Positions 11,124-43,375 of a stretch of DNA of 64,000 nt are shown in pieces. Location: positions 310,001 to 374,000 of the forward strand of contig NZ_FQWO01000001.1 in NCBI RefSeq assembly GCF_900129705.1. Direction: 5' to 3'. The translations under genes were made by a program, and so were the position numbers. The number at the start of each line of letters is the position of its first letter. The first letter of the stretch is position 1. The stretch comes from Flavobacterium granuli. GTDB taxonomy: Bacteria > Bacteroidota > Bacteroidia > Flavobacteriales > Flavobacteriaceae. The notes beneath the pieces were generated by a model, which ran no database searches, was not told the origin of the DNA, and saw nothing but the letters and a program-made list of their open reading frames with translations.

Positions 11124-13037
11124 ATGAAAATAGAAACTGTACACATAAAAAACTTCCGCTCATTCAAGGATGATACTATACATTTTGATGATTACACTTG
11201 TTTAGTTGGAGCAAATGGTGCAGGAAAATCAACAGTATTTACGGCTTTGCAAGTTTTCTTTAGACACTACAAAGACAGTAAAACCGATTTGAGTAAGCTT
11301 ACTGAAAAAGACTTTCATCATTGCAATACTGCCGAACCTATTGAGATTACAGTAACATTTACAGATTTAAGCGAACAAGCCCAAGAAGATTTAAGTAATT
11401 ATGCTCGACAAGGAAAGTTAATTGTAACCGCCAAAGCTGAATTTGATGCTGCAACTCAAAGAGCTGAAATAAAACAATTTGGTAACAGATTGGGTATTGA
11501 TGATTTTAGAATATTTTTTGAAAAAGAAAAAAGTGCAGCCAAAGCACCAGAATTAAATGAGTGTTATGCTCAATTACAAGTTAATTTTCCGGAATTACCT
11601 AACGCCGGATCTAAAGAAGCTAAAATGACAGCTTTAAAAGAATACGAAGCTGCAAGACCAGCCGAATGTATTTTAATACCTAGTGAAGACCAATTCTATG
11701 GAGCGTCTAAAGGTGCAAATCGATTGGCTCCTCATATTCAATGGGTGTTTGTTTCAGCTTCAAAAGATGTTACCGAAGAAGGAGAAGAAAATAAAACTTC
11801 CGCTTTAGGAACACTATTATCAAGAACCGTAAGAGCCAAAGTTAATTTTACAGAAAGAATATCAGAAATAAGAAAAGAAGTTGGCGAACAATATTCTAAA
11901 TTACTTGATGACGAACAAAATGTTTTAGATGATATTTCAGCTTCATTAAAAAGTAAGTTAAGTCAATGGGCTAATCCAAGTATAAGTGCTTCCGTTCAAT
12001 GGAAAAAAGATGCGGACAAAGCCATTAAAATTGAAGAACCATCAGCAGCAATAGCATTAGGCGAAAGAGGATTTGAAGGCGAGTTATCTCGCTTTGGTCA
12101 CGGATTACAAAGGTCGTTTATGTTGGCTTTATTGCAAGAATTAAGTACAACCGATGATGAAAACGCACCAACTTTAATATTAAGTATAGAAGAACCAGAG
12201 CTATACCAACATCCACCACAAGCAAGGCATTTAGCGGAAACATTAATGGATTTGGCAGGACTAAATACGCAAGTAATGTTATGCTCACATTCGCCACTAT
12301 TCATTCCTAAAAACAGTTTCGAGAAAATAAGAATAATTCGTGAACACGGAAATCCAATTGAAACATTAAGTTCCAGTGTAAGTTATCAAGAATTATCAGA
12401 TTATTTAACCAGTATTGGTTCAAAACCAATCAATAATAAAGGAATTGTAGCAAAACTATTTCCATATTTAAGTCCGTCTATAAATGAAATGTTTTTTTGT
12501 AGAGTTCCAGTTTTTGTAGAGGGTATTGAAGATATTGCTTACATCAAGACCTATTTAGAATTAATGGGATTATCAGGGCAATTCAGAGCTACAGGTATGC
12601 ACTTAATCAATGCCGATAAAAAAAGTAACATAATAGAACCAGCAGCTGTAGTCAAACTATTAAAAATTAATGGATTTGTAATTTACGATACCGATACGGA
12701 TTGCAAAGAAATTCATCAGAATGATCATAAAAGAGACAACAAGAAATTATTAACTATTCAAGGGCACGATGCCGAAGATGAATTTCAAGCGGCTAATATT
12801 GTAAAACCAAATCTTTGGGCTTGGAAAACTAATTTAGGTAAAGAAGTAAAAAGTGAAATTCCCAATTGGAACGCATTTTACACTATTTCTTGTGCTGAAT
12901 TTGGCAATGCAGCAGATTTACATAAAAACCCATTAGTTGTAGCAAGAACATTAGAGTTAGCTTGGGAAAAAGAAGAAACATCGCCAAACCTTATAAAATT
13001 AATTGAAACCATTATCGAATTCGGTACAGTAAAATAA
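11124..13037 (+). CDS. OLD-family ATPase/Toprim nuclease
   Basis: The 637-residue protein has an N-terminal SMC/ABC-type ATPase with Walker A GANGAGKST at 29-37 and the late ABC motifs LSIEEPELYQHPPQ (near 353-366) and a Ser-His element. The C-terminal part is a Toprim domain: VFVEGIEDIAYIKTYLE (catalytic Glu near 467) and GFVIYDTDTDC (Asp-x-Asp near 520). This is the architecture of OLD and GajA, nucleases that cut or nick DNA in phage defence. It is the first gene of a tightly packed plus-strand cluster, with mod starting 3 bp after its stop. It may gate or replace nuclease activity in that system. Domain calls are firm; its role in the complex is inferred. Confidence 0.8.
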   Translation: MKIETVHIKNFRSFKDDTIHFDDYTCLVGANGAGKSTVFTALQVFFRHYKDSKTDLSKLTEKDFHHCNTAEPIEITVTFTDLSEQAQEDLSNYARQGKLIVTAKAEFDAATQRAEIKQFGNRLGIDDFRIFFEKEKSAAKAPELNECYAQLQVNFPELPNAGSKEAKMTALKEYEAARPAECILIPSEDQFYGASKGANRLAPHIQWVFVSASKDVTEEGEENKTSALGTLLSRTVRAKVNFTERISEIRKEVGEQYSKLLDDEQNVLDDISASLKSKLSQWANPSISASVQWKKDADKAIKIEEPSAAIALGERGFEGELSRFGHGLQRSFMLALLQELSTTDDENAPTLILSIEEPELYQHPPQARHLAETLMDLAGLNTQVMLCSHSPLFIPKNSFEKIRIIREHGNPIETLSSSVSYQELSDYLTSIGSKPINNKGIVAKLFPYLSPSINEMFFCRVPVFVEGIEDIAYIKTYLELMGLSGQFRATGMHLINADKKSNIIEPAAVVKLLKINGFVIYDTDTDCKEIHQNDHKRDNKKLLTIQGHDAEDEFQAANIVKPNLWAWKTNLGKEVKSEIPNWNAFYTISCAEFGNAADLHKNPLVVARTLELAWEKEETSPNLIKLIETIIEFGTVK

Positions 13038-13040
13038 ACA

Positions 13041-14870
13041 ATGAACAAACAAGACCTAATATCTAAAATAAAACAACTCGACGGTATCTCTCAAGACGAA
13101 CGCGCCTATTTAATTAATTTGGTAAACACCAAGAAAAAATATGGCCTAGTTTGGGAAGACAAACCGGAAGATTTTGAAGAACAATTACGAGATAATTTAC
13201 CAGTTTTAAAGGAAGTAAAAGAAAAAGCAATTATAAATGGCGAGGACAACCCTAATCATATATTAATTGAAGGCGACAACTTACACGCGCTTACTGCTCT
13301 AACTTTTACCCACGAAGGCAAAATTGATGTTATTTATATTGACCCTCCATACAACACTGGAGCTAAAGAAGATTTTATCTACAATGACCATTATGTTGAC
13401 AAAGAAGATGCATTTAGACATAGCAAATGGTTATCATTTATGCATAGAAGGCTTAGAATTGCAAAATCACTTTTAAAAGAAGATGGTGTGATTTTTTGTT
13501 CAATTGGTGATGACGAGATTAGTCAATTAACATTGTTATTTAATGAAATATTTACTGAAAAAAATAAATTAGGTGTTATTACTAGATTAGCTAAACCAGC
13601 AGATGATCAAGGTAATTATTTTTCATCAAGTAAAGATTATGTAATAGCTTATACAAAAAGCATTAATTTACTTGCTAATTTTAAAGATAGTGTTAACGAA
13701 ACTCTTTTTAAGAAAGTTGAAACCGTTGGTCCAAAAACTGGAGAAAAATATCGTGATGATGTGGCATTTTATCAAGCAGCATTGGGCGTTCGTCCAAATT
13801 TACGATATTATGTTAAATGCCCTGATGGTTCATTGGTTATACCTCCAGGCAATACTTTTCCTGTTGAAAAAAGCGATGGTTCACAATCAATTCCACAATC
13901 AGATGAAGATAAATGTTGGAGATGGTCATTAGAAAAATATCTCATTGATAAACATTTGTTAGTTTATAAAAAATCAAACAAAACACCATTAGTTGATGAA
14001 TTTGGTAATCAAGCAAAATGGAATATTTACACAAAAAGTTACCTAAATGATCGTTCAGAAAAAGGAGCCTCTCCAAGAGATTTTATAGACCAATTTATAA
14101 ACCGTAAAGGAGCGGATTTAATAAAACAATATGATATAAAGTTTAGTTACTCAAAACCTTTCGAATTAATTCAACATTTAGTAAAAATCACTAATAAGAG
14201 TAATGACATTACTGTTTTAGATTTCTTTGCTGGTTCAGGAACTGCATTACATTCTGTAATGAGTTTAAATGAATTAGATAAGGGAACTAGAACTTGTATC
14301 ATATCAACTAACAATGAAAATAATATTTGTGAAGAAGTAACTTATCCACGATGTGAAAGAACAATAAATCCATACACAAATAAAAAAGGAAAGGAAATGC
14401 CAAGTTTTCCAAATAACAATCTACGTTATTACAAAAGTGAATTTGTAAGTCGTGAAACTTCACTAAATAATAAAAGGGAACTTACATTATTAGCTACCGA
14501 ACTTCTGTGCATTAAAGAAAACTGTTATGCTGAAAAGAAAATTGATATTAAAAAAGTTAAATATTTTGAAAATAATAAGGTGACATTACTTATTCTGTTT
14601 GATGATATTGCAATTACTGAAACTATTGAATTTATAAAAAACTATACAAGTAAGAATAAAATCAAAATTTATATTTTCTCGATTGGAAGTGATCCTTATA
14701 CAGAAGATTTTACAGAGGTTCTTAATAAAGTTGAGCTTTGTGCATTGCCTGATGCTATATACAAAGCGTATCAAAATGTTTTGCCTAAAAGAAAAAGACC
14801 AGAAACAATAATTGATTTGGAAACAGTAAATCCAATCAATGAAAACGGTGAACAGTTATCAATTTTATAA
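13041..14870 (+). CDS. Type III-like DNA methyltransferase (Mod), beta class
   Basis: The 609-residue protein has the beta-class order of amino-methyltransferases: catalytic motif IV DPPYNTG at 101-107, then a long variable region that would contain the target-recognition domain, then the AdoMet-binding motif DFFAGSGT at 394-401. This order and size match Mod subunits of type III restriction systems, which usually methylate N6 of adenine on one strand of a short asymmetric site. A Res-like gene follows after 11 bp. The target sequence cannot be read from the protein. The downstream DndD-like and HerA-like genes are not part of a classical type III system. Confidence 0.85.
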   Translation: MNKQDLISKIKQLDGISQDERAYLINLVNTKKKYGLVWEDKPEDFEEQLRDNLPVLKEVKEKAIINGEDNPNHILIEGDNLHALTALTFTHEGKIDVIYIDPPYNTGAKEDFIYNDHYVDKEDAFRHSKWLSFMHRRLRIAKSLLKEDGVIFCSIGDDEISQLTLLFNEIFTEKNKLGVITRLAKPADDQGNYFSSSKDYVIAYTKSINLLANFKDSVNETLFKKVETVGPKTGEKYRDDVAFYQAALGVRPNLRYYVKCPDGSLVIPPGNTFPVEKSDGSQSIPQSDEDKCWRWSLEKYLIDKHLLVYKKSNKTPLVDEFGNQAKWNIYTKSYLNDRSEKGASPRDFIDQFINRKGADLIKQYDIKFSYSKPFELIQHLVKITNKSNDITVLDFFAGSGTALHSVMSLNELDKGTRTCIISTNNENNICEEVTYPRCERTINPYTNKKGKEMPSFPNNNLRYYKSEFVSRETSLNNKRELTLLATELLCIKENCYAEKKIDIKKVKYFENNKVTLLILFDDIAITETIEFIKNYTSKNKIKIYIFSIGSDPYTEDFTEVLNKVELCALPDAIYKAYQNVLPKRKRPETIIDLETVNPINENGEQLSIL

Positions 14871-14881
14871 GAAGTACCATA

Positions 14882-17197
14882 ATGAAGTTATTACAATTAG
14901 AATATAGAGACGAAGCAATAAAACAATTAAAGAAATACTTTTTTGAGTTATTGAATAAAGATTATCACCGTCATATCATAGCATTTCAAGCTCCAACTGG
15001 TTCTGGAAAAACAGTAACGATGGCTTGTTTATTGAAAGAAATAGTAAACGAACTGCCTACCCATTTTGAATTACCAAACAGGAACGTAACTTATATTTGG
15101 ATAGCACCAAATGCACTGCATTTGCAGAGTTATGCCAGTTTATCTCACTTTTACAGTGAAACTCGTGATATTAAGACAATAAGTATTGATGATATTACTG
15201 ATGATTGTTTAAAGCCAAATGAAATGTTATTTCTCAATTGGCAAACCATCAACAGAGACGATACTATTTTTATGAGAGAAGGCGAAGATGGTAAAAGCTT
15301 TTACAACATCATTAACCAAACCATTCTAAATGATACCGAAATAGTGGTTATTATTGATGAAGAACATTTGATGGCTGGAGGTAAAACTGCTGAAAAAGCC
15401 GAAAAAGTATTACGAAATATAAAACCAAAAATTGAATTAAGAATATCAGCTACACTAACCAATAATAGTATGCGTTCGCCATACAGGGTAATGATTTCAA
15501 GAGACGAAGTGGTAAAAGCTCAAATGATTAAAAAAGGGGTGCATTTAAACCCGTTGGTTAGAGCCGAAGAACAAGCAGGTCGTGATGCGGATGTAGTATT
15601 ATTAACCAAATCATTAGAAAAACGCGTTGAATTAGATAAAATATACCAATCAATTGGTACCAATATAAGACCATTATTATTGATACAACTACCTTCGGAT
15701 ACTGCAAAAGTTTCTACAGAAGATATTCGTATTCGTGATACTGTGGTAGATTATCTTTCTACAGTAGGAATTACAGAACAAAACGGAAAATTAGCAGTTT
15801 GGTTAAGTGGCGAAAAAACAAACCTTGAAGATATTTCAAAACCTGACAATATGGTGGAAGTTTTGTTATTCAAACAAGCCATTGCGTTAGGTTGGGATTG
15901 CCCTAGAGCTTCTGTTTTATTAATCTATCGTGAAATGAAAAGTGAAACATTCACTATTCAAACAATGGGTAGAATTTTACGTATGCCAGAGCAAAAACAT
16001 TACAATGAAGAAGCCTTAAATTACGGCTATATTTATACCAATTTAAATAAAAATCTAATTACAATACTTCCAGAAGAAGCAGATTATATAACAGAAAATA
16101 AGGCAACAAGAAACGATGAAATCTATTCGGCTGTTGAATTAAAATCATATTACATTCAGAAAGAAATATCAAGAAATCGTATTGGTTTACACTTTAGGGA
16201 AGCACTATTTAAAGCTGCTGAACAACTCTTTAATGTAAGTAGTGTTGCTACAGACGAAACCTCAAAGTATTTCAAGAATAAAGATGCGATGGTTCAATCC
16301 GGCATAACAATGGATGTTGATAATATCGAAATTGGCATTCCTACTGATGTGAATTTAGATGTTACTAGCGTTGGTGCTACTAGAGCTGACCACGTAGAAA
16401 AATTTGCTAAAACACCTTATCAATTGGAGCAATTATTCAACAGGGTTTGTTTGGCTAGTTGTGGCGATTATCAAAAAGATGCAAGTTGGGAGCGTATTAA
16501 ATATCATACACAATTATTTTTTGAAGAATATTTGGGCTTGTATGGTGTTGTAGTGTATAAAATAGTATTGTATAATGAGGATAGATTTGCTGATTTATTC
16601 AATTTAGCACGTGAAATATATGCTAAACTAATGGAAGCAAAAGCTTCAAAAAATACAGCTTCTTTAAAGGAATATGAAAAACCTTGGGATGTTCCAGAAT
16701 TCAAAATTTTTAATGATAAATATGTTGAATACGAGGCAAATGCACACGCATTAGACCCATTATTTGCTAGAAATAGAGGAAATAGTTTATTGTTTGATAG
16801 TGCCAATGAACATCAGTTTATCAATGTTTTAATAGAAAATGAACAACATATTCAATGGTGGTATAAAAACGGTAGCAGCAACAAAGAAGATTTTGCAATA
16901 CCTTATAAAAAGAAAAACGGTACCCAATCACTTTTTTATGTTGATATAGTGATAAAATTCAAAAATGGGTTACTAGGTTTATTCGATCCAAAAACAATTG
17001 AAAGCGATCCTGAAAATGTTGCCAAACATAATGCTTTGATAGAATATATTGAAGAATTAAACAAGCAAGGGAAAAAAGCGGTTGGAAGTATTATTATCAA
17101 TAATAAAGGTAGTTGGAGATATTGTAATATGAGAATTGAAAATGATAAGGATTTAACCAGTTGGGAATTTTTTAATGCTGCTGCACTAAATAAATAA
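14882..17197 (+). CDS. Type III-like restriction helicase/nuclease subunit (Res)
   Basis: The 771-residue SF2 protein has Walker A APTGSGKT at 37-44, a DEEH box at 159-162 and motif VI-like MGRILRMPEQ. The C-terminal segment YVDIVIKFKNGLLGLFDPK fits a PD-(D/E)xK nuclease with Asp and a D-x-K in place of E-x-K. It is shorter than classical Res subunits (about 900-1000). With Mod it should translocate on or sense DNA and cleave unmodified invaders. The 7-bp gap to the next gene indicates co-translation with the rest of the cluster. Whether it cuts or only acts as the helicase is open, since other nucleases are encoded alongside. Confidence 0.8.
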   Translation: MKLLQLEYRDEAIKQLKKYFFELLNKDYHRHIIAFQAPTGSGKTVTMACLLKEIVNELPTHFELPNRNVTYIWIAPNALHLQSYASLSHFYSETRDIKTISIDDITDDCLKPNEMLFLNWQTINRDDTIFMREGEDGKSFYNIINQTILNDTEIVVIIDEEHLMAGGKTAEKAEKVLRNIKPKIELRISATLTNNSMRSPYRVMISRDEVVKAQMIKKGVHLNPLVRAEEQAGRDADVVLLTKSLEKRVELDKIYQSIGTNIRPLLLIQLPSDTAKVSTEDIRIRDTVVDYLSTVGITEQNGKLAVWLSGEKTNLEDISKPDNMVEVLLFKQAIALGWDCPRASVLLIYREMKSETFTIQTMGRILRMPEQKHYNEEALNYGYIYTNLNKNLITILPEEADYITENKATRNDEIYSAVELKSYYIQKEISRNRIGLHFREALFKAAEQLFNVSSVATDETSKYFKNKDAMVQSGITMDVDNIEIGIPTDVNLDVTSVGATRADHVEKFAKTPYQLEQLFNRVCLASCGDYQKDASWERIKYHTQLFFEEYLGLYGVVVYKIVLYNEDRFADLFNLAREIYAKLMEAKASKNTASLKEYEKPWDVPEFKIFNDKYVEYEANAHALDPLFARNRGNSLLFDSANEHQFINVLIENEQHIQWWYKNGSSNKEDFAIPYKKKNGTQSLFYVDIVIKFKNGLLGLFDPKTIESDPENVAKHNALIEYIEELNKQGKKAVGSIIINNKGSWRYCNMRIENDKDLTSWEFFNAAALNK

Positions 17198-17204
17198 CAT
17201 AGCT

Positions 17205-17420
17205 ATGATAAACAAAGGACTAGATACGACATTCATTCATTTTGGTATTCGTAAAGACGATATGGAAATTATCAAAAATCTCTGTGAAGAACAAGGATTA
17301 GGCTTTGAATGGCTGGAAGAAAACATATTAAAAGAGTTCCACAATCTTAAAATCAATAACGAAGATATTGATAGCAAAAAGATTGAAAAAATTATCGAAA
17401 AGGCTTTAAACAAAATATAA
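17205..17420 (+). CDS. Small acidic/helical protein of DNA-modification cluster (71 aa)
   Basis: The 71-residue protein is charged and predicted helical (DDMEIIKNLCEEQGL, then IEKIIEKALNKI). It has no catalytic motif, signal or membrane segment. It sits 7 bp after res and 5 bp before the DndD-like gene, so it is translated with them and is probably a small structural or adaptor subunit. Short proteins at this position accompany related Mod/Res/DndD-like clusters, as I recall. No function is known to me. Confidence 0.7.
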   Translation: MINKGLDTTFIHFGIRKDDMEIIKNLCEEQGLGFEWLEENILKEFHNLKINNEDIDSKKIEKIIEKALNKI

Positions 17421-17425
17421 GTACT

Positions 17426-19429
17426 ATGCTCATTACCAAAATAATTGCCAAAAACTTTAAAACCTATCGGGAACTCGATTTGGATTTAACCGTAAACGAA
17501 GAGCAACCGATTATTCTAATTGGTGGAGAAAATGGAGGTGGTAAAACTACCTTGTTTCAAGCCATTTATAGTGCGTTGTATGGTCTAAAAGTAAAAGACG
17601 AACAACACTTCAATAAACTGCAAAACGCGGGCGAAAGGGCAAAAAACGCAGGTAATAGCAGCAACAAAATTGAATTAGAAATTCACTTCACGGGTAAAGT
17701 ATTGCACAGCGATTACAAATACATAATAAAGCGATTATATACACTCAATGCACAAAACAATCCTGTAGAAGCAGTAATGCTAAATCTTAACGGTGATGTT
17801 TTTAATTATGGAACGGCTACACCACACGCTGAAAGAGTAAAGAAAGAAGCCGAAGTAAATAAAATAATCAAAGCCAATCTGCCCCAAGAATTAAGTAAAT
17901 ATTTCCTTTTTGATGCAATGGAAGCAGGTAATTTGTTAAAGGACGAATACCTTAATCGTGTCATCAAAGAGAATATTGAAAACGTGATGGGTTTTAATAA
18001 GTACATTCAATTAGGCAATGCAACCAATACACTAACGCAAGAATACATTGCACAAAGTATTGAAATTGAAGAAGAAAGAACACAATACAAAAACCTTTTA
18101 GAAGAGCATAAAAAATACCAAGACTTAATTGATGCTACTAAAGTGCAATACGATAGAAGTTTAAGTTATGCTATGGCTCAAAAGGATTTCTACGAAAGTG
18201 CTAAAGAAGGTAAAAGTCTTCAGGCAAACATCAAAGAGCAAATTCAAATTGTAGAAAGAAAGATTGATGATATTCTAAACAAGGAAATTCTATTCATAGA
18301 CCAATCAGAAAAATTCCTTAATGATATTGAAATTCAAGTTTTCATTCCGAAACTCATTACAATTGTTCAAAACGAAATTGAATTAATACTTTCGGAGAAA
18401 AGCCAACAAAACAATAGCGATTTTATAGAGCCGGAACACATCAATAAAGTTTCGGATAAAGTGTTAGAATTCCTTGCAGCATACAATTTAATTAAAGGAG
18501 AACTAACAGCCGAACAGAAAATAAAACTAGCGGATTATATCATAAAAAAATCAGGTCAAAACAAAAATGATACAGAATATGATTTTATTGATAAAAACGA
18601 TATAACTCATTTTGAACAATTGTTAGGTTGGTCAAGCATCAATCAATACAACATATTAGAGCAGCAAAAAAGCAGTTTAGAAAAGGAAATAGCTTCGCTA
18701 CCTAATTTAAAAATTCAGTTATTGGATTTAAGAAAAAATGATATGGGTGGTGGTGAAGAAATTATCCAAAGTTATGATGCCAACGAATTAAAGATAAAAG
18801 AATACAAAGACGCTATCAAAAATTACCAATCTGAAATTGAGCGTTTAGATACTAAAATTAAAAGATTTGATTTGTCAGATGAAGAGGTGCCAAATCCTAA
18901 ACTAGAAATCCTGAAAAAGTTAGGCCCATTATTTTCAAATATTTCCAATGCCTTGTTAAAAAACAAAAAGGCACGTATTGAAGAGGCAATGAAAAACGAT
19001 TTAAATACAACTTTAGTGGTATATGAAAATCAGATTGATCGTGTGGTTTTGTCAGAAGATTTAAGTAATCTTTCATTCAAAATTTACCACAAAGCCGGTA
19101 ATGAAATATACCTTGATGAATTAAATGCAGCTTCAAAACAAATAATAATCCAGGTACTTTTAAAATCTTTGCATTATTTTGGAGATTATAATCCTCCAGT
19201 AATGATTGATACCGTTTTTGGATATTTAGACGAAAGTAGTCGAGCTTCATTACTCGAAAATTACTTCCCTAAATTATCACATCAAACCATTTTATTAAGT
19301 ACGGATAGTGAAATTAGAAAGTCTGTTGATTTGAGTAAAATCGAAAATTTCATTTCAAAAAAATTCACTCTCGTTAGAGACAAGGAAAATCAATTAACAG
19401 AAGTAGTTGAAGGCTATTTTCCTAATTAA
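17426..19429 (+). CDS. DndD-like SMC ATPase
   Basis: The 667-residue protein starts MLITKIIAKNFKTYRELDLDL and has Walker A GGENGGGKT at 33-41. A long central coiled coil (about 200-500) follows, then a C-terminal ATPase half with a degenerate ABC signature (DELNAASKQIIIQVL) and Walker B VMIDTVFGYLDE. This is the layout of DndD and Rad50/SbcC-type proteins. DndD works with DndC and DndE in phosphorothioate DNA modification, but no dndC (sulfur-inserting enzyme) is seen here. It more likely senses or scans DNA for the Mod/Res module. It is preceded by the 71-aa gene and followed 12 bp later by a FtsK-like gene. Confidence 0.75.
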   Translation: MLITKIIAKNFKTYRELDLDLTVNEEQPIILIGGENGGGKTTLFQAIYSALYGLKVKDEQHFNKLQNAGERAKNAGNSSNKIELEIHFTGKVLHSDYKYIIKRLYTLNAQNNPVEAVMLNLNGDVFNYGTATPHAERVKKEAEVNKIIKANLPQELSKYFLFDAMEAGNLLKDEYLNRVIKENIENVMGFNKYIQLGNATNTLTQEYIAQSIEIEEERTQYKNLLEEHKKYQDLIDATKVQYDRSLSYAMAQKDFYESAKEGKSLQANIKEQIQIVERKIDDILNKEILFIDQSEKFLNDIEIQVFIPKLITIVQNEIELILSEKSQQNNSDFIEPEHINKVSDKVLEFLAAYNLIKGELTAEQKIKLADYIIKKSGQNKNDTEYDFIDKNDITHFEQLLGWSSINQYNILEQQKSSLEKEIASLPNLKIQLLDLRKNDMGGGEEIIQSYDANELKIKEYKDAIKNYQSEIERLDTKIKRFDLSDEEVPNPKLEILKKLGPLFSNISNALLKNKKARIEEAMKNDLNTTLVVYENQIDRVVLSEDLSNLSFKIYHKAGNEIYLDELNAASKQIIIQVLLKSLHYFGDYNPPVMIDTVFGYLDESSRASLLENYFPKLSHQTILLSTDSEIRKSVDLSKIENFISKKFTLVRDKENQLTEVVEGYFPN

Positions 19430-19441
19430 TTTTAAGTAGTT

Positions 19442-21022
19442 ATGGCAGCAATAGAAACAGGATTACGACAAGCGGAAGCATTGAATTCAAAAATGAATGA
19501 TTTGCGAGAGCGTTTAGAGAAACACATCAATTTAAAACACTATACCGATAATCATAAAAATGTAAGTCCGAAAGGAAATGCAAAACTGATGCGTATTTGT
19601 TTAATTGCGGGATTGTCCGATAATGAGAAAAGAAACAAAGAAGTACTCAATATTCAAATGTCGTCCAACAGTATTCATCCAACACTTTTTACGGTTCACA
19701 ATCTAAATGGAATGCTGTCTTCAATGATAAAGTTACGATACCACGATTTAGAAATAAATTGGGAAGATAACATTACAAAAAGTAAAGTCGTTAATGCGGA
19801 GATTTTCAGAGGCTTTGATATGCTGATGAAAGGCGATACATTACACGAATGGCTAAAAGTAAGTACAACAGCTTCAATAAAAGCAGGACAGATACCATTA
19901 TTAAACTTAAATATAGGTAATTACGATGGGGATATTAGCGCTTATTTAGATATGAATAGCAAAAATGTAACCAACACTCAAATTCTTATTGCAGGTTCAA
20001 CAGGTTCTGGAAAATCAAACCTTTTAGCCGTTTTAATGAACGAAATGCGTTCCTTATCAGTTGAAAGTAATTATCCGGTAAATTTCCTTTTCTTCGATTA
20101 CAAAGGAGAGTTTTCTGATATTGCTAATAATGATTGGCTGCAACATTTTGAGGTAAACCGTTCTTCTATTTTAGATCCAATGGTAGAGCCTTTGCCGTTT
20201 ACGCCATTCAAAGATTTTGTAGGTAAAACACAAAACGAAATCAATCTATACTCAACAGAATTGGCAAATGCTTTATTAGCTATAGATAGTGCAAAAATAA
20301 GCGCCAATATGAGTAATAGATTATCAGAAGCAATAATAAATGCCTACAAAGACACAAAAGGTAAATCAATCGACTTCACAACGATAATAGAAAACTACAC
20401 TGATTTACAGCCACAAAACGAACGAGAAAGAATGGATAGTGTAAAATCGGTTTTAAGTCAATTAGAGCGTGCTAATCTATTCCTAAACGATGATAGAATT
20501 GATTTGATTGGAAATAGTTTTATTGTAAAAATGGATAAATTCCCAAAAGAAGGTCCAATTGGAAAGGCAATAGTATATTTCATAGTATCAAAACTAAATT
20601 CAATATACGAAAATCTTCCAGTTCAAGCCAATGACAAAGAAAAAGTGGAATTAAGACACTTCACAATTATTGATGAAGCCCATTATATGCTAGGATTTGA
20701 CAACAAACCACTTCGTGATTTGATTGCAGTAGGTCGTAACAAAGGAATGAGTATTATTCTGGCAACTCAAAATATGGATGCCTACAAAAGCAAACATTTT
20801 GACTTCTATGCCAATGCACAATATCCTTTAATAATGAAGCAACAATCCATTAACGATGCAGTACTAAAAGATATGTATGGGGTTTCAGGAACCGATTTAG
20901 TAGAAATAAAACAAGCCATTGCAGGGCTCCAAAAAGGAGAATTAATTATCAAAAACAACGAAGCTATTATACTAGGATTTGGTAAAAAGTTTAAGAAAAT
21001 AATGGTTAGGCACCTTATATAG
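19442..21022 (+). CDS. FtsK/HerA-like ATPase with possible DndE-like N-terminal domain
   Basis: In this 526-residue protein, residues 1-140 form a separate domain with LMRICLIAGLSDNEKR and TLFTVHNLNGMLSSMIKLRYH. This faintly resembles DndE, the small DNA-binding protein of the Dnd system. The rest is a FtsK/HerA-like motor: Walker A GSTGSGKS at 185-192, FFDYKGEFSD, Walker B FTIIDEAHYML, and a sensor region GRNKGMSIILATQNMD. HerA-like motors form hexamers that thread or pump DNA. The gene is 12 bp after the DndD-like ATPase, so a DndD + DndE-motor pair is plausible. The DndE link is weak sequence resemblance only. Confidence 0.7.
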   Translation: MAAIETGLRQAEALNSKMNDLRERLEKHINLKHYTDNHKNVSPKGNAKLMRICLIAGLSDNEKRNKEVLNIQMSSNSIHPTLFTVHNLNGMLSSMIKLRYHDLEINWEDNITKSKVVNAEIFRGFDMLMKGDTLHEWLKVSTTASIKAGQIPLLNLNIGNYDGDISAYLDMNSKNVTNTQILIAGSTGSGKSNLLAVLMNEMRSLSVESNYPVNFLFFDYKGEFSDIANNDWLQHFEVNRSSILDPMVEPLPFTPFKDFVGKTQNEINLYSTELANALLAIDSAKISANMSNRLSEAIINAYKDTKGKSIDFTTIIENYTDLQPQNERERMDSVKSVLSQLERANLFLNDDRIDLIGNSFIVKMDKFPKEGPIGKAIVYFIVSKLNSIYENLPVQANDKEKVELRHFTIIDEAHYMLGFDNKPLRDLIAVGRNKGMSIILATQNMDAYKSKHFDFYANAQYPLIMKQQSINDAVLKDMYGVSGTDLVEIKQAIAGLQKGELIIKNNEAIILGFGKKFKKIMVRHLI

Positions 21023-21052
21023 TTTAAGAATTAATTTTTTCATGAATTTATT

Positions 21053-21631
21053 ATGACAGCTAGACAATTTCAAAATATTATATTTCCATTATTAACTGAA
21101 AGACTTTTTAACTGCCCCGTTAAAAATGAATGGTCGGCATTTAATGGATATATTAATCACTACTCACCACGTGTTGATATTGCTGTGGGTCCTTTTAGTA
21201 TGGAGCAAGGTTTAAATCAAATACAGAATTATAATAATCTTGTAAATGATCAGAATATAAATTCCTTTCTCAAACAATTGTATGAATATCATATAGAAAA
21301 TATTGGAGGAGAAATTGACAATGAGATAACTATTCCAAATTTTGACGATTTGATTTATAAAAATCAGAATGCTAGATGTTTTTTAGCTATTGAAATTGAA
21401 AACCAAAATTCTAAAAAGCATATAATGGGTAGTATGATAAACGCTGCATCATTAGGTAGAATAGGAATTGGGATAGCTTACAATGATAATACTTTACGTA
21501 CTTTTATTAGAATAATGAATTACCTTGGTTTTCTTCGTCGTGTAGAAAAGAACACATACGACACCACTAATTTTTTAATAATTACAAAAGACCAGTTAGC
21601 TGAATTATTAAATCTTCACATTCAACAATAA
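21053..21631 (+). CDS. Restriction-fold-like protein next to SIR2-HerA (192 aa)
   Basis: I do not recognise a named family. The sequence has a pattern like a PD-(D/E)xK fold: SPRVDIAVGPF with Asp42, then FLAIEIENQNSKKH with Glu114, Glu116, Asn117 and Lys121/122, followed by a helix and strand INAASLGRIGIGIAY. The E-x-E-N form replaces the usual E-x-K, so catalysis is uncertain. It lies 30 bp after the FtsK-like gene and 4 bp before the SIR2 gene, at the junction of the two halves of the cluster. It could be a nuclease or a DNA-end-binding adaptor. Confidence 0.55.
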   Translation: MTARQFQNIIFPLLTERLFNCPVKNEWSAFNGYINHYSPRVDIAVGPFSMEQGLNQIQNYNNLVNDQNINSFLKQLYEYHIENIGGEIDNEITIPNFDDLIYKNQNARCFLAIEIENQNSKKHIMGSMINAASLGRIGIGIAYNDNTLRTFIRIMNYLGFLRRVEKNTYDTTNFLIITKDQLAELLNLHIQQ

Positions 21632-21635
21632 AAAT

Positions 21636-22829
21636 ATGGAAGAACATGACTTTGAGAAAATAAAAGAAGAAATAAAGAAACAACTTGATTCTAGTAGACA
21701 AAATTGGTTATTTGGTGCAGGTATAAGTTATAATTCAAATATTCCATTAATGTATCCTTTGACCGAAAGAGTTAAAAACATTATACTTGAAGATTTAACA
21801 AATCCTTCTCACAAGAAGAATAATGAAATTTATGAATTATTAACAAATGAATTAATAGCAAATTCTCATATTGAGCACTATTTAAGTCATATTGGTGATT
21901 TAATTGCTTTAGCTGAGAGGTCTAAAGCGCAAACAGCAAATATTAATAAATTCTCATTTACAAATGAAGAATTGATAAATCTTCATAAATCAATTATTTC
22001 AGCTATTGGTGATACAGTTAGGTACGGTTATTTTAAAAATAAAGATGAAGAACAAATTGGAAATTCAAATAATCCAATAGTTGAAATAGAGCATCATTTG
22101 AAGTTTGTACAAGCATTATATTCAAATAGATCAAATTTGATGTCACGTTCAAAATTAACTTTTTTCACAACAAATTATGATACTTTATTAGAAGATGCTT
22201 TGGCACTTGAAAAATTTACAGTTGTTGATGGTTTTTCTGGTGGTTCAGTTGGATACTGGAACCCACAATTTGAATTCCAAGATTTAAATAGTTTACCAAA
22301 TAAATGTTTATTGTATAAGTTGCATGGTTCAATTGATTGGCAAAGAGATAAAAATAAAGGCTTAATGCGAACACGCTACGGTACTAAATATTTATCTAAT
22401 ACTTCGGATATAATGATTTATCCACAAGCTACTAAATATGTAGAGACACAAAAGGATCCATTTTCTTATTTATTTCATGGTTTTAGAAATAGTTTAAATT
22501 CAAAAGAAGATAATATATTAATTACGTGTGGGTATAGTTTTGGTGATGACCATATTAATGCTGAAATAGAAGCGGCACTTTTCTCAAAAGATAATAGGAC
22601 GACTATTATTGCATTTGCACAAGAAAATTCAAATGGCGATATAGTTATAAATAAAACATTAGATGCTTGGATTAAAAATCCTGAATTTGGTGAAAGAATA
22701 TATGTAGCAGGTCAAAAAGGTATTTATTATAATTCAACAAATCCAATTAAACCAGATGACTCTAAAGATTTATTCTGGTGGACATTTACAGGTTTAACAA
22801 ATTTCATTATTACTGGAGAACATGAATAA
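21636..22829 (+). CDS. SIR2-family NAD-processing defence protein
   Basis: The 397-residue protein carries SIR2 signatures: the NAD-binding GAGIS at 27-31, TTNYD at 178-182 and catalytic His230 in KLHGSIDW, then ILITCGYSFGDDHIN near the end. In phage defence, SIR2 domains typically cleave NAD+ on infection and stop the cell's metabolism. Its reading frame overlaps the next gene, HerA, by 8 bp, indicating translational coupling. SIR2 and HerA form a known two-protein defence complex (SIR2-HerA, also called Nezha). Here it sits at the end of a larger restriction-like operon. Confidence 0.88.
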   Translation: MEEHDFEKIKEEIKKQLDSSRQNWLFGAGISYNSNIPLMYPLTERVKNIILEDLTNPSHKKNNEIYELLTNELIANSHIEHYLSHIGDLIALAERSKAQTANINKFSFTNEELINLHKSIISAIGDTVRYGYFKNKDEEQIGNSNNPIVEIEHHLKFVQALYSNRSNLMSRSKLTFFTTNYDTLLEDALALEKFTVVDGFSGGSVGYWNPQFEFQDLNSLPNKCLLYKLHGSIDWQRDKNKGLMRTRYGTKYLSNTSDIMIYPQATKYVETQKDPFSYLFHGFRNSLNSKEDNILITCGYSFGDDHINAEIEAALFSKDNRTTIIAFAQENSNGDIVINKTLDAWIKNPEFGERIYVAGQKGIYYNSTNPIKPDDSKDLFWWTFTGLTNFIITGEHE

Positions 22830-24651
22830 AGAAATATTTACAACAAATCAGTCACTTCGAATTGGAAAAATTATAGAAGTAAGTGGTAACTCTATTCGCA
22901 TTGAGTTAGATATTAAAATTACTGAATTGACAAGGTCAGTTTATGGTCAAATATATTCTGTTGGTCAAATAGGCAGTATTATAAAAATTCACTTTGGAAG
23001 GAAGATTTTATTTGCCTACGTGAGGATGCTAAGAATGCAATCTGATATACAGTCAGAGGAAGGGAAAGCTCAAATTTTACCAGGAGATGATAAAAGAATT
23101 TTAGAAGCTGATTTATTTGGACAAGGTATTTGGAGTGTTAAAAATAAGCAGTTAGAGTTCAATAGAGGTATAGAAACATATCCACTTCCTTTGCAAGATG
23201 CTTTTTTATGTTTAAATGATGAATTGGAAAGTATTTACCGTGCTGCTGAAAATTTAAAAGAAAATAAAATTAACCCTATGGTTCCTATAGGGAATTATGT
23301 AGGTGGCAATAATGCAATTTGTAGAGCAAACATAGATAAATTATTTGGACATCATTGTGCAATTTTGGGGTCAACTGGTTCCGGAAAATCTGGAACAGTT
23401 GCTTCTATTTTACATTCTGTTTTATCACACAAAACGGATGGCAAAAATATTTCACCAAGAATTATAATGATTGATCCACATGGTGAATATGCAAAAGCTT
23501 TTGGCGATAAAGCAGTAGTCTATAAAGCTTATAGTGAAGCATCGACCAGTACCATTAAAGCTGAACAATTAAAATTACCTTATTGGTTAATGTCTAGTGA
23601 TGAATTTAGGTCGTTAGTTATTGGTAAAACAGAATTTGAAGCTACTTCACAAACAAACATGGTTTATCAAGCAATCACATACGCTAGATTATTGAATCAT
23701 GAATTAGTGCAAAATATAGGTGCTAATCCTTTGGGGGAAGCCAAAGATGATATTCCAGAAGGAGTAACAACCCCAGAGCAAATATTAAACTTTGATAGAG
23801 ATAAACCTACACCCTTTCTACTGTCTGAATTCATAAAACATATTGATAAAGTTCAAGGACAAAAACCTGGTAAAAGTGAAAACCTTGCAGCTAGTTCTGG
23901 TAGAGATAAAATAGATTCTATACTTAAAAAATTAAAAGTTTTAAGAACAAATCCTCAACTTTCATTTATAATGGATGAATTTAGTCCTGAATCTCCAAAA
24001 TTAGATGAGATTTTAGCTCAATTTTTTGGTGAGATAAAAGACGAAACAACTGGAGTAGATAAAAACCTTAGAATAATTGATATTTCAGGTTTGCCTAATG
24101 AAGTTGCTGGTCCTCTTACAGCTCTAATTGCTAGATTATTATTTCAATATAAACTTTGGCAAACTAGAGAAGAAAGAGAAAAAGATCCAGTTCTTTTTAT
24201 TTGTGAAGAAGCACATAGATATGTTCCAAATCATGGTGAAGCGCAATACAAAGAAGCTCAAGAGGCCGTTCGTCGTATAGCAAAAGAAGGTAGAAAATAT
24301 GGCGTTGGATTAATGTTAATTTCGCAAAGGCCTTCCGATGTTGAATCTACTGTTTTATCACAATGTAATTCTTGGATTATTCTTCGTCTAACAAATTCTA
24401 GTGACCAAGAACATGTTTCTAAATTTTTGCCTGATAGTTTAACTGGGTTAACAAAAATGTTACCATCACTAACTAGAAGGGAAGCTATTTTTGTTGGTGA
24501 AGCTGCTGCTTTACCTAGTAGAATTAGAATTAATAAATTAACTGAAGAACAATTACCTGACTCAAATGATATAAGTTTTGTTAAAGGGTGGTCAAACGAA
24601 CCGACTAAGTCTTCAGAATTGGAAACAGTTAGTAAGAGATGGCTAGGATAA
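22822..24651 (+). CDS. HerA-type hexameric DNA translocase/helicase
   Basis: The 609-residue protein starts 8 bp inside the SIR2 gene. It has an N-terminal beta-barrel-like HAS region, Walker A GSTGSGKS at 183-190, IIMIDPHGEYAKAF, Walker B PVLFICEEAHRYVP and an arginine-finger region EGRKYGVGLMLISQRPSD, all typical of bacterial and archaeal HerA. HerA forms hexameric rings on DNA. In SIR2-HerA systems it assembles SIR2 into an active supramolecular complex. Two HerA-like motors in one operon (this one and the 19442-21022 gene) is unusual. Confidence 0.88.
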   Translation: MNKEIFTTNQSLRIGKIIEVSGNSIRIELDIKITELTRSVYGQIYSVGQIGSIIKIHFGRKILFAYVRMLRMQSDIQSEEGKAQILPGDDKRILEADLFGQGIWSVKNKQLEFNRGIETYPLPLQDAFLCLNDELESIYRAAENLKENKINPMVPIGNYVGGNNAICRANIDKLFGHHCAILGSTGSGKSGTVASILHSVLSHKTDGKNISPRIIMIDPHGEYAKAFGDKAVVYKAYSEASTSTIKAEQLKLPYWLMSSDEFRSLVIGKTEFEATSQTNMVYQAITYARLLNHELVQNIGANPLGEAKDDIPEGVTTPEQILNFDRDKPTPFLLSEFIKHIDKVQGQKPGKSENLAASSGRDKIDSILKKLKVLRTNPQLSFIMDEFSPESPKLDEILAQFFGEIKDETTGVDKNLRIIDISGLPNEVAGPLTALIARLLFQYKLWQTREEREKDPVLFICEEAHRYVPNHGEAQYKEAQEAVRRIAKEGRKYGVGLMLISQRPSDVESTVLSQCNSWIILRLTNSSDQEHVSKFLPDSLTGLTKMLPSLTRREAIFVGEAAALPSRIRINKLTEEQLPDSNDISFVKGWSNEPTKSSELETVSKRWLG

Positions 24652-24714: not shown

Positions 24715-26511
24715 ATGGCAAACGAATTAGAAAAAGCTATAACAATAAAAAATGCAATTGATAAAATTGACTCGGGAGATTTTTTATTACCATCAATACA
24801 AAGAAGATTTGTTTGGAATCCAATTCAAATTGAATTTTTATTTGATTCTATAATGCAAGACTATCCAATTAATACATTTATGTTTTGGGAAGTTGAAGAA
24901 GATAGTATTAAAAATCAATTTCGTTTTTATGATTTTCTTAAAAAATACGTTGAATATCAGGGAGGTAACAATCATGAAAGAAAAACTAAAGGATATAAAA
25001 ATTTCAAAGCGGTTATTGATGGTCAACAAAGATTAAATAGTTTATATATAGGATTAAAAGGAAGCTATGCATACAGGCATTATGTTTATAATAAAAAAAT
25101 ATATTATGAAGATGAAGTGAATTATCCAACACGAAAATTATTTTTAGATATTCTATCTCCTATTGAGAACCATGAGGAAAAAAAAGTATACGATTTTTTA
25201 TTTTTAATTCAGAATGAGCATAAAGATGAGAGTATATCGAGAGTTAAACAAATTTCTGATGAAAATGGTAATAGTAAAGAAATTGAATGCTTTTGGTTTG
25301 AAGTTGGTAATATATTAGAGTTTAAAAGTGAGCACAATGTAATTACATATCTAACTAAAGAAAATTTAGATATTTCTGGTTTTCCTGGAGAAACATTGTT
25401 AAAACTATATAAACTTGTTAACGAAAAACCAATCATTAATTATTTTTTGGAACAAGAGCAAGATTTTGATAAGATATTATATGAATTCATAAGAACAAAT
25501 TCAGGCGGTACTAAATTATCATTTGCAGATTTACTGATGTCTATAATAACTGCTTCATGGGAGATTGGTCAATCAAGTAAGGGAGCAAGAGAAGAATTGG
25601 ATAATGTCATTAGACAAATAAGAGAATTTGGCTTTACAATAGATCAAGATTTTATTTTAAAAACCTGTTTAGTTTTAGTTGGAACCGATATTAGGTTTGC
25701 ATTAAAAAATTTTGATAATGATACTATAAGTAAAATCAAGTTAGATTGGAGTAAAATAACATTGTGCATAAAAGAAAGTTTTCAATTGGTTAAATCATTA
25801 TCATTTAATAATCATTCTCTTCGTGCTAAGAATTCTATAATTCCAATTATCTATTATTTATATATTTCAGATTTCTACAAGGATATAAATAAGGAGAATA
25901 AACATAGTGATAATAAGAAATTAATTAAGCAGTATTTAAATATATCCTTACTAAATAAGCTTTTTGGAGGTAGTTCTGACGGGTTTTTAATAAAACTCAA
26001 AAAAGTAATTACTGATAACGGGATTAGTGATTTTCCATTAGCAAATTTTAAAACTACTTTTAAAGGGACAAGTAAGAGTTTTAATATAGATGACGAAAAG
26101 TTAGACACAATACTAAGAACATCTTATGATAATTTGGATAGTTTTTATATTCTTTCAATATTATTTCCAAAATTTAATTTTGAGTTCAAAAATCCTAATG
26201 TGGATCATTTACATCCTAAATCTCAGTTTAATTATGAAACCTATTCTTTACTGAATGCAGATCAAATAGTATTCTATAATAATCATTATAATACAGTACT
26301 TAATCTTGGATTGTTATCAGAAGAGCAAAATAAATCAAAAAATAAAAGTCCATTAAAGGATTGGATTGATAAGCAATTAGTTTTTAGTGAAACCATAAAA
26401 GATCATTTATTAATACCTGAAAATACTAGTTTAGATTTCAACAATTTTGAAGAATTCATTAATAATAGAGAAATTAAACTAAAGCAGATTATTAAAGAAA
26501 ATATAGTTTAA
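24715..26511 (+). CDS. DUF262/GmrSD-like nuclease with C-terminal HNH-like motif
   Basis: The 598-residue protein has a DUF262 N-terminus: LPSIQRRFVW at 25-34 and the nucleotide-handling DGQQR at 102-106. The C-terminal VDHLHPKS near 496-503 matches the HNH-type (DUF1524-like) nuclease of GmrSD enzymes. Those are NTP-driven enzymes that cut modified phage DNA (type IV restriction). The 63-bp gap before it is larger than elsewhere in the cluster, so it may be a separate module with its own promoter. It is more AT-rich than the mod-res part. Substrate modification type cannot be told from sequence. Confidence 0.8.
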   Translation: MANELEKAITIKNAIDKIDSGDFLLPSIQRRFVWNPIQIEFLFDSIMQDYPINTFMFWEVEEDSIKNQFRFYDFLKKYVEYQGGNNHERKTKGYKNFKAVIDGQQRLNSLYIGLKGSYAYRHYVYNKKIYYEDEVNYPTRKLFLDILSPIENHEEKKVYDFLFLIQNEHKDESISRVKQISDENGNSKEIECFWFEVGNILEFKSEHNVITYLTKENLDISGFPGETLLKLYKLVNEKPIINYFLEQEQDFDKILYEFIRTNSGGTKLSFADLLMSIITASWEIGQSSKGAREELDNVIRQIREFGFTIDQDFILKTCLVLVGTDIRFALKNFDNDTISKIKLDWSKITLCIKESFQLVKSLSFNNHSLRAKNSIIPIIYYLYISDFYKDINKENKHSDNKKLIKQYLNISLLNKLFGGSSDGFLIKLKKVITDNGISDFPLANFKTTFKGTSKSFNIDDEKLDTILRTSYDNLDSFYILSILFPKFNFEFKNPNVDHLHPKSQFNYETYSLLNADQIVFYNNHYNTVLNLGLLSEEQNKSKNKSPLKDWIDKQLVFSETIKDHLLIPENTSLDFNNFEEFINNREIKLKQIIKENIV

Positions 26512-35007: not shown

Positions 35008-35217
35008 ATGTTAGAAGTTAGAAAGAACACATACTCAAGAAATTACGAAAACACCTTTTTCCGAGAGTTTGCAAGACACTTACATAAATCTTTCGTAGAC
35101 AACGGACGTTCTGGGCTCTTAATTGGGAGCCCATTTTGTGAAGTGGACGAAAGACTTCAAATTGACGCTTTACTTATTACTGACCAAGTAGTTTGCATTA
35201 TTGGCTTCAAAAATTGA
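35008..35217 (+). pseudogene. Truncated NERD-type nuclease/helicase gene, 5' fragment
   Basis: The 69-codon frame reads MLEVRKNTYSR, then LLIGSPFCEVDERLQIDALL, ending VVCIIGFKN. This matches the start of proteins with an N-terminal NERD (PD-(D/E)xK) nuclease fused to a DNA helicase. The expected D-F-K catalytic end is changed to G-F-K and a stop follows at once. The break coincides with the end of the CHAT-like frame on the opposite strand, around the shared sequence ttcaaaaat. Non-functional fragment. Confidence 0.65.
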
Positions 35218-35928
35218 CTTTATCCCATTAACTTCATTTTTAGAATAGGGCAATAAATTAAAACTTGAATTTCGGCCTTGTATTTTTATACTATCGTTAT
35301 TTTTATTCTTGCCATAATTAATGTTGCCAAATAATGCAATAGTGCTGTTTTTAGAAGTTTCTTTTTTTATTTCAATAAGCTCTTTCGTGCTTCCGAGATA
35401 AGTAATATCGACTTTCATTTCATTCAATAATGCAGGAAAAGAAATGGTATGAAGCAAGCCACTTACTGATAAATAAATCTTGTCATTAGGAGAAATTTTA
35501 TTCTCAATTTTTTTCCAAATCAAATTACTTAGTTTATCGCTATTCTGTTGATAAATAGAATTTATCCTTGCTTCCGTATTTCCTTTCTTATTTAAAATAG
35601 TAGTCAATTCGCTTTCCAAAAACAATGAAATAACTTCTGGAACAACTGAATTTTTCTTTATCAATAATGCAAAATAGCCTTTATCATTTTTTCCTACTCT
35701 GTTTACAGGGACATTTATTATTTCAATGGTAATTTCTTTTGCTTCAAGCGATTTCTTTATATTTCCCCATTTTATTGCAGTAGGATCTAAAAAGTGATAA
35801 TTTGAATCAGATGTTATTTGTTCAATTAAATTTCTTTGTTTCTTGTTTAAATTAAATTCGAATTCTTTTGATTTCGATTTAGAGTAAAGTAGCGTTTCAT
35901 TTTCTTCTAAAAAACCCGACAGGTTTTT
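35170..35928 (-). pseudogene. TPR-CHAT protease-like gene, internal fragment
   Basis: The minus-strand frame is open from a stop at 35929-35931 down to 35170 (253 codons), with its only early Met at 35664. It reads ITSDSNYHFLDPTAIKW, GYFALLIKKNSVVPEVI, LSNLIWKKIENKI and then KIYLSVSGLLHTISFPALL. That is the characteristic run-up and first strand of CHAT caspase-like domains. It ends at GIKSIFEANNANYL. The CHAT catalytic His and Cys segments, which come later, are missing, as is the N-terminal TPR region. CHAT proteases act in bacterial defence and cell death. This copy is dead. Confidence 0.75.
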
Positions 35929-39428: not shown

Positions 39429-39429
39429 T

Positions 39430-40347: not shown

Positions 40348-40400
40348 ACGAAATCAAGAGCTTTCATTTACTATTTTACAAATAATAAAACCTTAACAAA

Positions 40401-42563: not shown

Positions 42564-42809
42564 CAAATACATCCGCAACACCCCAAAACAAATAGCCACA
42601 AGCTACCGAAAACAGATTATTGAAACTTTGGGTTGGGAATAAAACAAAACCTTTATGACTCTAGTGTAAAACTCCCAAAAACTCAAAAGAAGTTGACTAA
42701 ATGTTTAGCACTTTAAAGCAAATTTACTTAATTCAAAAAAAATGAACGAAGTTCAAAAGCATAAAAACGATTATAAAACAAGAAATTTTACAATAATTAT
42801 AAGATTTAT

Positions 42810-43361: not shown

Positions 43362-43375
43362 ACCCTAATTTAAAA

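Follow-up and report, generated by a model that had tools for sequence, protein, structure and literature searches.

Closest described systems

PbeABCD is a defence system in which pbeB, pbeC and pbeD are required for defence and pbeA is required in part, as set out in the accessible text of PMC6459918. Base-modification genes lie within 10 kb in 155 of 320 pbeAC loci that are without dndCD (PMC6459918), and the available portions of that paper and of PMC10853773 raise the pairing of the core with methylases in addition to phosphorothioation. The present study concerns a locus in a 64,000-nucleotide stretch of the genome of Flavobacterium granuli, hereafter the window, in which the genes of a type III restriction-modification (RM) pair, Mod and Res, precede those of a small protein (Sp), a DndD-like ATP-binding cassette (ABC) ATPase and a HerA ATPase with a putative DndE-like domain (HerA1, gene 6 of the locus). 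Judged by gene order in other genomes, the functional unit is these five genes, Mod-Res-Sp-DndD-HerA1, at 13041-21022, and it most likely encodes a PbeABCD-like defence that uses base methylation.

The locus shares with the PbeABCD/CxC systems (PMC6459918, PMC10853773) the order of a superfamily 2 (SF2) helicase-nuclease, a small protein, a coiled-coil ABC ATPase and DndE, with the small protein upstream of the ABC ATPase here as well. It differs in that Res carries a D...D-x-K motif and lacks a PLD (HKD) match in a Pfam search, a full type III Mod comes before Res, DndE is fused to HerA, and the ATPase is without a CxC hook and bears an LN[AT]AS signature. The likeness to HerA clade-3 of PMC10853773 lies in the DndD-related ATPase beside a DndE-HerA fusion, which agrees with the fold result given below, and in the small protein, which falls in PF20306, a Dnd-named family; the DndE part of the present protein differs in going undetected by the Pfam DndE model. 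The same paper also covers the small protein, DndD/CxC-DndE cores and cytosine methylases, and in its accessible text the phrase 'type III restriction' occurs only in the title of a reference, while the HKD protein's helicase is compared with components of type I/III restriction. Publications already cover the small protein, the association of DndD with DndE-HerA and the pairing with methylases; a fixed pairing of type III Mod-Res with Sp-DndD-DndE/HerA was not found in the accessible text of the literature searched, of which PMC10853773 is the closest paper.

Adjacent Mod and Res genes, the former with a variable recognition region and the latter with an SF2 helicase and a nuclease motif, are also the hallmark that the locus has in common with the type III RM enzymes EcoP1I and EcoP15I; unlike in those enzymes, the Sp-DndD-DndE/HerA module follows in this clade, and Res has no match among PDB chain sequences at E<=0.001. 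Genes 8 and 9 of the locus are an ordinary member of the SIR2-HerA (Nezha) systems, and their place behind the five-gene unit is unique to this genome among the compared loci. The accessible text of PMC5608340 describes two Prevotella intermedia strains as having no DndB-DndE or DndFGH homologues. Here, the HerA/FtsK domain of gene 6 is best matched in PADLOC by DndH (E 3e-22, HerA part only), but gene 6 covers only the last part of DndH, and the matches listed for ten proteins include neither DndF nor DndG. Reference 24 of PMC10853773, which we take to be Krishnan 2020, may describe part of the five-gene system.

A conserved order of five genes

The DndD-like protein, used as a query against genome contigs, identified 33 loci from other genomes (comparison loci carry the prefix L). 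Most are from Bacteroidota; two are Ignavibacteria metagenome-assembled genomes (MAGs), one is a contig binned as Alphaproteobacteria and two are records titled 'bacterium'. Each locus was checked by tblastn for all genes of the window and was counted only where its contig extends far enough, and matches below 50 bits (below 100 for Mod) were dropped from the gene-order counts. L016 and L037, of equal length and with the same genes, are very probably one contig, and L037 alone was counted.

Sp lies upstream of DndD, and HerA1 downstream, in 31/31 testable loci, with a Sp-to-DndD spacing of 0.8-0.9 kb in L029, L035 and L050. Res is upstream of DndD in 30/31 testable loci, the exception being L042, and Mod is upstream of Res in all 24 that can be judged (24/24). 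In contrast, OLD precedes Mod in 1/17 testable loci (L031, 71% identical), and the 192-aa gene, SIR2 and the second HerA gene (HerA2) are found downstream of HerA1 in 0/26. These counts define a core of five genes and leave the other four as cargo: OLD, the 192-aa gene and SIR2-HerA are, on this comparison, separate passengers of the same island. Since the order of genes 2-6 is kept in other genomes, the core is not a product of chance.

The first-pass annotation had described all nine genes as one composite that couples modification to depletion of nicotinamide adenine dinucleotide (NAD). Its Mod-Res-Sp-DndD-HerA1 portion stands, as that order is kept across Bacteroidota and in the two Ignavibacteria MAGs; the remaining four genes, and with them the modification-plus-NAD-depletion unit, find no support in the counts for OLD, the 192-aa gene, SIR2 and HerA2. 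It had also named a usual occurrence of SIR2-HerA or OLD elsewhere as a sign of stacked known systems, and SIR2-HerA does occur alone on a Rhizobium plasmid and OLD alone in L067.

The five-gene system looks rare. DndD homologues at E<=1e-20 are present in 4/397 genomes of the family, two of which belong to this clade, and PF20306 is present in 5/395 genomes of the phylum, a figure that includes other variants and concerns a small protein that is easily missed. Plasmid records with DndD number 23, all below 60% identity and mostly annotated dndD, and gene 6 has no match in viral contigs.

Properties of the five proteins

Mod matches the Pfam family N6_N4_Mtase and the PADLOC type III Mod model (MTase_III, E 1.4e-75), with DPPY at residue 101 and FAGSG at 396. 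Across 21 rows, the window included, identity to the window is 73-85% at residues 1-150 and 67-70% at residues 391-450, and it falls to 15-33% at residues 181-390, the variable target-recognition region, whose bounds are approximate. Variability confined to 181-390 is as expected for a specificity subunit, and the protein has the N6/N4 methyltransferase motifs and variable target-recognition domain of a type III Mod. Res contains a ResIII SF2 helicase above the Pfam cut-off and DPK at residue 702, and the D...D-x-K pattern is present in 23/23 aligned rows; at the motif level, Res has the SF2 helicase motifs and the PD-(D/E)XK-type nuclease pattern of a type III enzyme. The motifs of both proteins are conserved across the alignment with small variations. 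Two tandem Mod genes precede a single Res at L036:1960-5559 and L037:3638-7471, the second Mod of L036 being split over two frames, and such tandem genes could give double specificity.

Sp matches PF20306 (Sp-DndD) at 30.1 bits against a cut-off of 27.2. The DndD-like protein scores 178.6 bits against TIGR03185, below the curated cut-off of 245.85 that marks the DndD of Dnd systems. A search for DndC (TIGR03183) at E<=1e-3 across the genome to which the window belongs, which is 99.99% complete, found none (dndA and dndB were not searched), in line with the earlier statement that dndC is missing. The hook pattern C-x(1,2)-C is found in 0/30 clade DndD sequences, one of them partial, and the window protein is without any cysteine and hence without a zinc hook; CIC is found in one plasmid protein, labelled Pbe-like from gene order.

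The ABC signature of the clade is altered to LN[AT]AS[KT]Q in 29/29 full-length DndD sequences (LNAASKQ in the window), where three DndD, one Pbe-like protein and five proteins of two other Sp-linked variants have LS-x-GE instead. Beside Walker B, the clade has DTV[MF]G[VY]L as opposed to DTPLxRL in DndD and the other Sp-linked variants, the Pbe-like protein being unlike both, and Walker A is intact. The serine and glycine of the ABC signature contact ATP across the dimer, and the ATP handling of the clade DndD is therefore probably changed. A tree of DndD with 29 clade rows of 34 has very long branches, and its placement of the clade relative to DndD and PbeC was not used.

Gene 6 matches HerA DUF87, with HerA motifs invariant in 17 rows. 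DndE (PF08870) is absent among the 21 families listed for gene 6 at E<=1 and among the best 25 of the 40 families counted across 17 homologues, the others matching at most one member. Profile-profile comparison of the gene 6 N-terminus with the N-termini of DndE-bearing relatives gave no match, and no DndE came up when PDB sequences were searched with a profile of the N-terminal alignment. Pfam does detect DndE in the related fusions of L008, L017 and L018. A Foldseek search with the predicted N-terminal domain has DndE 4lrv as its top match at probability 1.00, with E-values of 0.02 and 0.09 and none <=0.001. VIA-align gives Z scores of 8.6 for 4lrv, 8.4 for 5wtu (a DndE mutant) and 7.8 for 7x4e (archaeal), three entries that are two proteins by their titles, and 3.1 for the next, unrelated protein; by the tool's own caution, helical bundles can commonly give Z values under about 13. 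The two models of this region (residues ~10-138) have a predicted local distance difference test score of about 80 over most of the first and a mean of 75 in the second, and they differ in topology, with strand-helix-helix twice in the first and helices only in the second. At the level of fold, and on the strength of the Z gap to the next match, the gene 6 N-terminus resembles DndE. The provisional name 'DndE?-FtsK' is therefore borne out for a DndE-like fold (Z 8.6) joined to HerA and goes unsupported by sequence profiles; family searches agree that the locus encodes two HerA-like motors, genes 6 and 9.

Partner exchange between the restriction and motor blocks

Rank correlations of pairwise identity, made without a significance test, cover the 19 complete sets of 34 (the window and 33 loci), the others being cut or without a full-length open reading frame (ORF), and use the higher-scoring Mod where two occur. 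Within the motor block they are 0.94 for DndD-HerA1, 0.86 for Sp-HerA1 and 0.83 for Sp-DndD, and for Mod-Res 0.69. Between the blocks they are 0.30 for Mod-DndD, 0.36 for Mod-HerA1, 0.45 for Mod-Sp, 0.48 for Res-DndD, 0.48 for Res-HerA1 and 0.67 for Res-Sp. The window and L019 share 98% of DndD and 47% of Res, L019 and L037 share 89% of Res and 51% of DndD, and the window and L022 share 97% of Res and 74% of DndD. By these comparisons, Mod-Res and Sp-DndD-HerA1 swap partners yet remain together.

A tree of Res was built from the window, 22 of the 30 locus Res (partial or broken ones omitted) and six unlinked Res, with L059 omitted as a fragment. A branch with support 100/98 separates the 23 complete DndD-linked Res, all of them, from the six others, which were not seen next to DndD. 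The simplest reading of the tree and the correlations would be a single origin of the partnership, followed by swapping of specificity cassettes within the clade.

Related modules also stand behind other front ends. The genome of the window has a second Sp-DndD-DndE/HerA module on another contig (L008:8086-13838), with relatives in L007 and L010, and the front gene of these three encodes a protein of 638-734 aa that has helix-turn-helix (HTH)-like matches (Sigma70_r4 and, in two of three, the RNA polymerase alpha C-terminal domain) and no nuclease match. A type I-like version at L017:5415-13338 and L018:4646-13074 consists of HsdM-HsdS, a small ORF, DndD and DndE-HerA, with a RAMA-domain protein additionally present in L018. 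Sp-DndD-DndE/HerA therefore looks like a portable module that partners several types of restriction. Insertions occur at two slots, Mod-Res and Res-Sp, as single genes or as a block (Table 1).

Proposed mechanism and competing explanations

From what is directly observed, namely the domain make-up, the conserved order, the absence of DndC, the DndE-like fold fused to HerA, the exchange of blocks and the altered signature, we lean towards a reading in which a type III RM pair is joined to a dedicated Sp-DndD-DndE/HerA module and the two act as one methylation-licensed defence. Mod aside, the gene content corresponds one to one to that of PbeABCD, and from this match we infer a methylation-licensed version of that system, in which Res would be the counterpart of PbeA, Sp of PbeB, DndD of PbeC and DndE-HerA of PbeD, and base methylation would replace phosphorothioation. 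Mod would methylate adenine at one asymmetric site and so mark self, and on unmarked DNA the Mod-Res complex would commit and travel along the duplex. The DndE domain may then bind the DNA, which the DndD arms would clamp or loop and the ring of HerA would pump, so that the invader would be held and either passed, by pure conjecture, to the nuclease of Res or prevented from replicating or being packaged. Sp may serve as a coupling factor or a brake. Such a unit, which is probably antiviral, would be expected to need Sp, DndD and HerA for full defence, and loss of Mod would be expected to harm the cell or leave the system unlicensed. A bolder and distinctly more tentative proposal is that the unit constitutes a distinct RM class, in which type III enzymes would have an obligatory SMC-like/DndE-HerA machine for trapping DNA, with the signature-altered ABC protein as an ATP-gated clamp, HerA as the pump and Mod-Res cassettes swapped against a constant motor block.

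Several points weigh against a single methylation-licensed defence. PbeABCD showed no viral DNA cleavage, and with PbeABCD the loss of modification genes gave no growth defect, according to the accessible text of PMC6459918, which makes the hand-over to a nuclease and the predicted toxicity the weakest parts of the mechanism. With its altered ABC signature, DndD may no longer be a working ATPase. The 33 loci were gathered with a DndD query, so they indicate that DndD implies Mod-Res and not the converse; for the converse there are nine genomes, of which two have DndD, six are labelled as without it and one has too short a contig, and three of the six have >7 kb inspectable downstream and three just 0.2-1.2 kb. 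The 2.2 kb available upstream in L042 contain an HTH/IrrE gene and no Res, and Abi_2, RhuM, Fic and Schlafen-like genes lie between Mod and Res or between Res and Sp in several loci. L074, which is without DndD, has a Res 36-38% identical to that of the window, about the same as some linked Res, so that the tree alone separates them, and the unlinked Res rows of that tree are long branches.

Intervening Abi_2, RhuM, Fic or Schlafen genes, exchange of partners between the blocks and related modules behind HsdM-HsdS (L017/L018) or the HTH protein (L007/L008/L010) would also suit two neighbours, that is, a Sp-DndD-DndE/HerA module that is an independent defence and lies beside type III RM only through shared defence islands. 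We consider this unlikely, because chance partners in an island would vary, as the flanking genes do, whereas Mod (24/24) and Res (30/31) precede the module in the same orientation and the Res linked to DndD group together in the tree. The sharing of the module by different restriction front ends would also fit a guard that detects when a phage blocks the type III enzyme and responds by killing or arresting the cell, a role that PrrC plays for a type I enzyme. Such a guard could have the small protein as its trigger, as the accessible text of PMC10853773 proposes for SP/PbeB, but it is an improbable account of this locus, since among the matches listed no nuclease or toxic domain is present in Sp, DndD or HerA1 and Res would have to do the killing.

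A single abortive defence of nine genes, with modification, restriction and NAD depletion by SIR2, has in its favour the tight spacing on one strand, a SIR2 gene (32%) directly after type I genes on a Shewanella plasmid, OLD (71%) before Mod in L031 and an OLD-like gene (21%) before Mod-Res in L074. It was nevertheless rejected on the gene-order counts (0/26 for the 192-aa gene, SIR2 and HerA2; 1/17 for OLD) and seems highly improbable, as SIR2-HerA is found without the rest in L052 and, with 132 bp upstream to judge from, in L061, and OLD is found alone in L067. It would be just as surprising if DndD and DndE-HerA served phosphorothioate modification of the backbone with sulfur transfer supplied elsewhere in the genome. 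A DndD-like protein and a DndE-like fold are what such a system would have, but the genome has no DndC at E<=1e-3 (the one such gene searched, dndA and dndB being left aside), DndD falls under the TIGR03185 cut-off and an intact base methylase lies beside DndD in 24/24 testable loci.

If the methylation-licensed reading is right, a DndD/DndE core cooperates with a restriction enzyme of the ordinary base-methylation kind. The PbeABCD and DndDE papers, in their accessible text, raised this option from gene neighbourhoods, and the present clade makes a five-gene test direct. HerA would then have a role to test in restriction, and the clade would offer a natural change of the ABC signature for study. 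For annotation, the libraries used split the unit into type III RM, Dnd and HerA fragments.

Accessory genes and the surrounding island

All nine ORFs were confirmed on the + strand with outer coordinates 11124-24651 (Table 1), and the gaps between them, in order 3, 11, 7, 5, 12, 30, 4 and -8 bp, are identical on re-measurement to those of the first-pass annotation. This close spacing and the common strand favour a possible single transcript of the nine. A tenth gene, omitted from it, encodes a GmrSD/HEC-05 protein, begins 63 bp after gene 9 and is possibly co-transcribed with the nine.

Table 1. Positions of the genes of the locus, its neighbour and related features; positions refer to the window unless a locus is named.
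Feature	Position	Strand	Remarks
OLD-family ATPase-TOPRIM	11124..13037	+	AAA_15 + OLD-like TOPRIM; accessory, outside the core
Mod, type III DNA methyltransferase, core gene 1	13041..14870	+	N6_N4_Mtase; adenine presumed from the family
Res, SF2 helicase with C-terminal D...D-x-K nuclease motif, core gene 2	14882..17197	+	ResIII
Sp, 71-aa small protein, core gene 3	17205..17420	+	PF20306 Sp-DndD
DndD-like coiled-coil ABC ATPase, core gene 4	17426..19429	+	DndD-like profile match
DndE-like domain fused to HerA/FtsK ATPase (gene 6, HerA1), core gene 5	19442..21022	+	
192-aa protein, gene 7	21053..21631	+	No family match; accessory
SIR2-like, SIR2-HerA (Nezha) type, gene 8	21636..22829	+	SIR2_2; accessory
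HerA partner of SIR2 (gene 9, HerA2)	22822..24651	+	PADLOC SIR2-HerA models; accessory
GmrSD-family (HEC-05) neighbour	24715..26511	+	Family match; 63 bp past the nine genes
Inserted genes			Abi_2: L023-L025, L031, L032; RhuM: L019, L020; Fic: L026; Schlafen AlbA_2: L038
Inserted block	L021:1704-9763		Four ORFs, including helicase and AAA
GmrSD-family genes	24715-26511; L022:3805-5649; L023:2481-4337; L026:2292-4229; L027:3435-5369; L017:13344-15098; L019:15285-17036		L019, L027 by similarity only

The AAA_15 and OLD-like TOPRIM domains of gene 1 are both above the Pfam cut-off, and the solitary OLD gene of L067, in another genome of the family, is 54% identical to it. The 192-aa protein of gene 7 has no match in Pfam (E<=0.1), in PADLOC or NCBIfam (E<=0.01), in plasmids or in viral contigs, and its best PDB sequence match has E 0.74; the 'restriction-fold' label once given to it is unproven. 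Gene 8 matches SIR2_2 and the PADLOC SIR2 model (E 2e-133) and gene 9 the PADLOC HerA model (E 6.3e-150), and both match solved SIR2-HerA complexes (8j4u, 8wld and others). TNYD at 179 and HG at 230 of SIR2 correspond to the NADase Asn and His, paired by position and motif, and not by alignment, with the residues named in the accessible text of PMC11559045, and the adjacent HerA gene overlaps by 8 bp, as befits a SIR2-HerA (Nezha) pair. The pair without other genes on the Rhizobium plasmid (L052) has 41% and 52% identity, and that on an IMG/VR contig (L061), which starts 132 bp before SIR2, has 47% and 64%; in 299 genomes of the family, SIR2 at E<=1e-30 is found only as the genome's own copy.

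On the Shewanella baltica plasmid (L053, 1-6113), a SIR2 gene (32% identical to that of the window) with no HerA comes immediately after type I R, an AAA ATPase, M and S, and the distant OLD-like gene (21%) of L074 precedes a Mod-Res pair that is without DndD. SIR2 or OLD beside restriction genes can therefore recur, though not as this set, and the cargo may not be wholly random. GmrSD-family genes recur beside the modules, either upstream of Mod or downstream of HerA1, which suggests that this type IV-like restriction forms a second layer against modified phage DNA.

GC content is 20-34% at ~8-46 kb of the window and mostly 35-43% elsewhere, with one segment at 32%. RteC and topoisomerase genes lie at the right end of the low-GC stretch, and their place at the edge of the island suggests a mobile-element setting. 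A promoter scan found TAnnTTTG at 10852, 272 bp before OLD, and four further copies within genes, the signal being weak, with none between 21022 and 21053. On the minus strand, 35170-35664 has a weak CHAT peptidase-like match under the Pfam cut-off. A gene for a 1237-aa YobI-like P-loop ATPase lies at 30636-34349, where the GC content of the island is lowest (20-27%), and a further same-strand cluster at 37584-44440, which includes an AAA_15/DUF3696 ATPase as well as a NERD-UvrD helicase, is possibly another defence unit.

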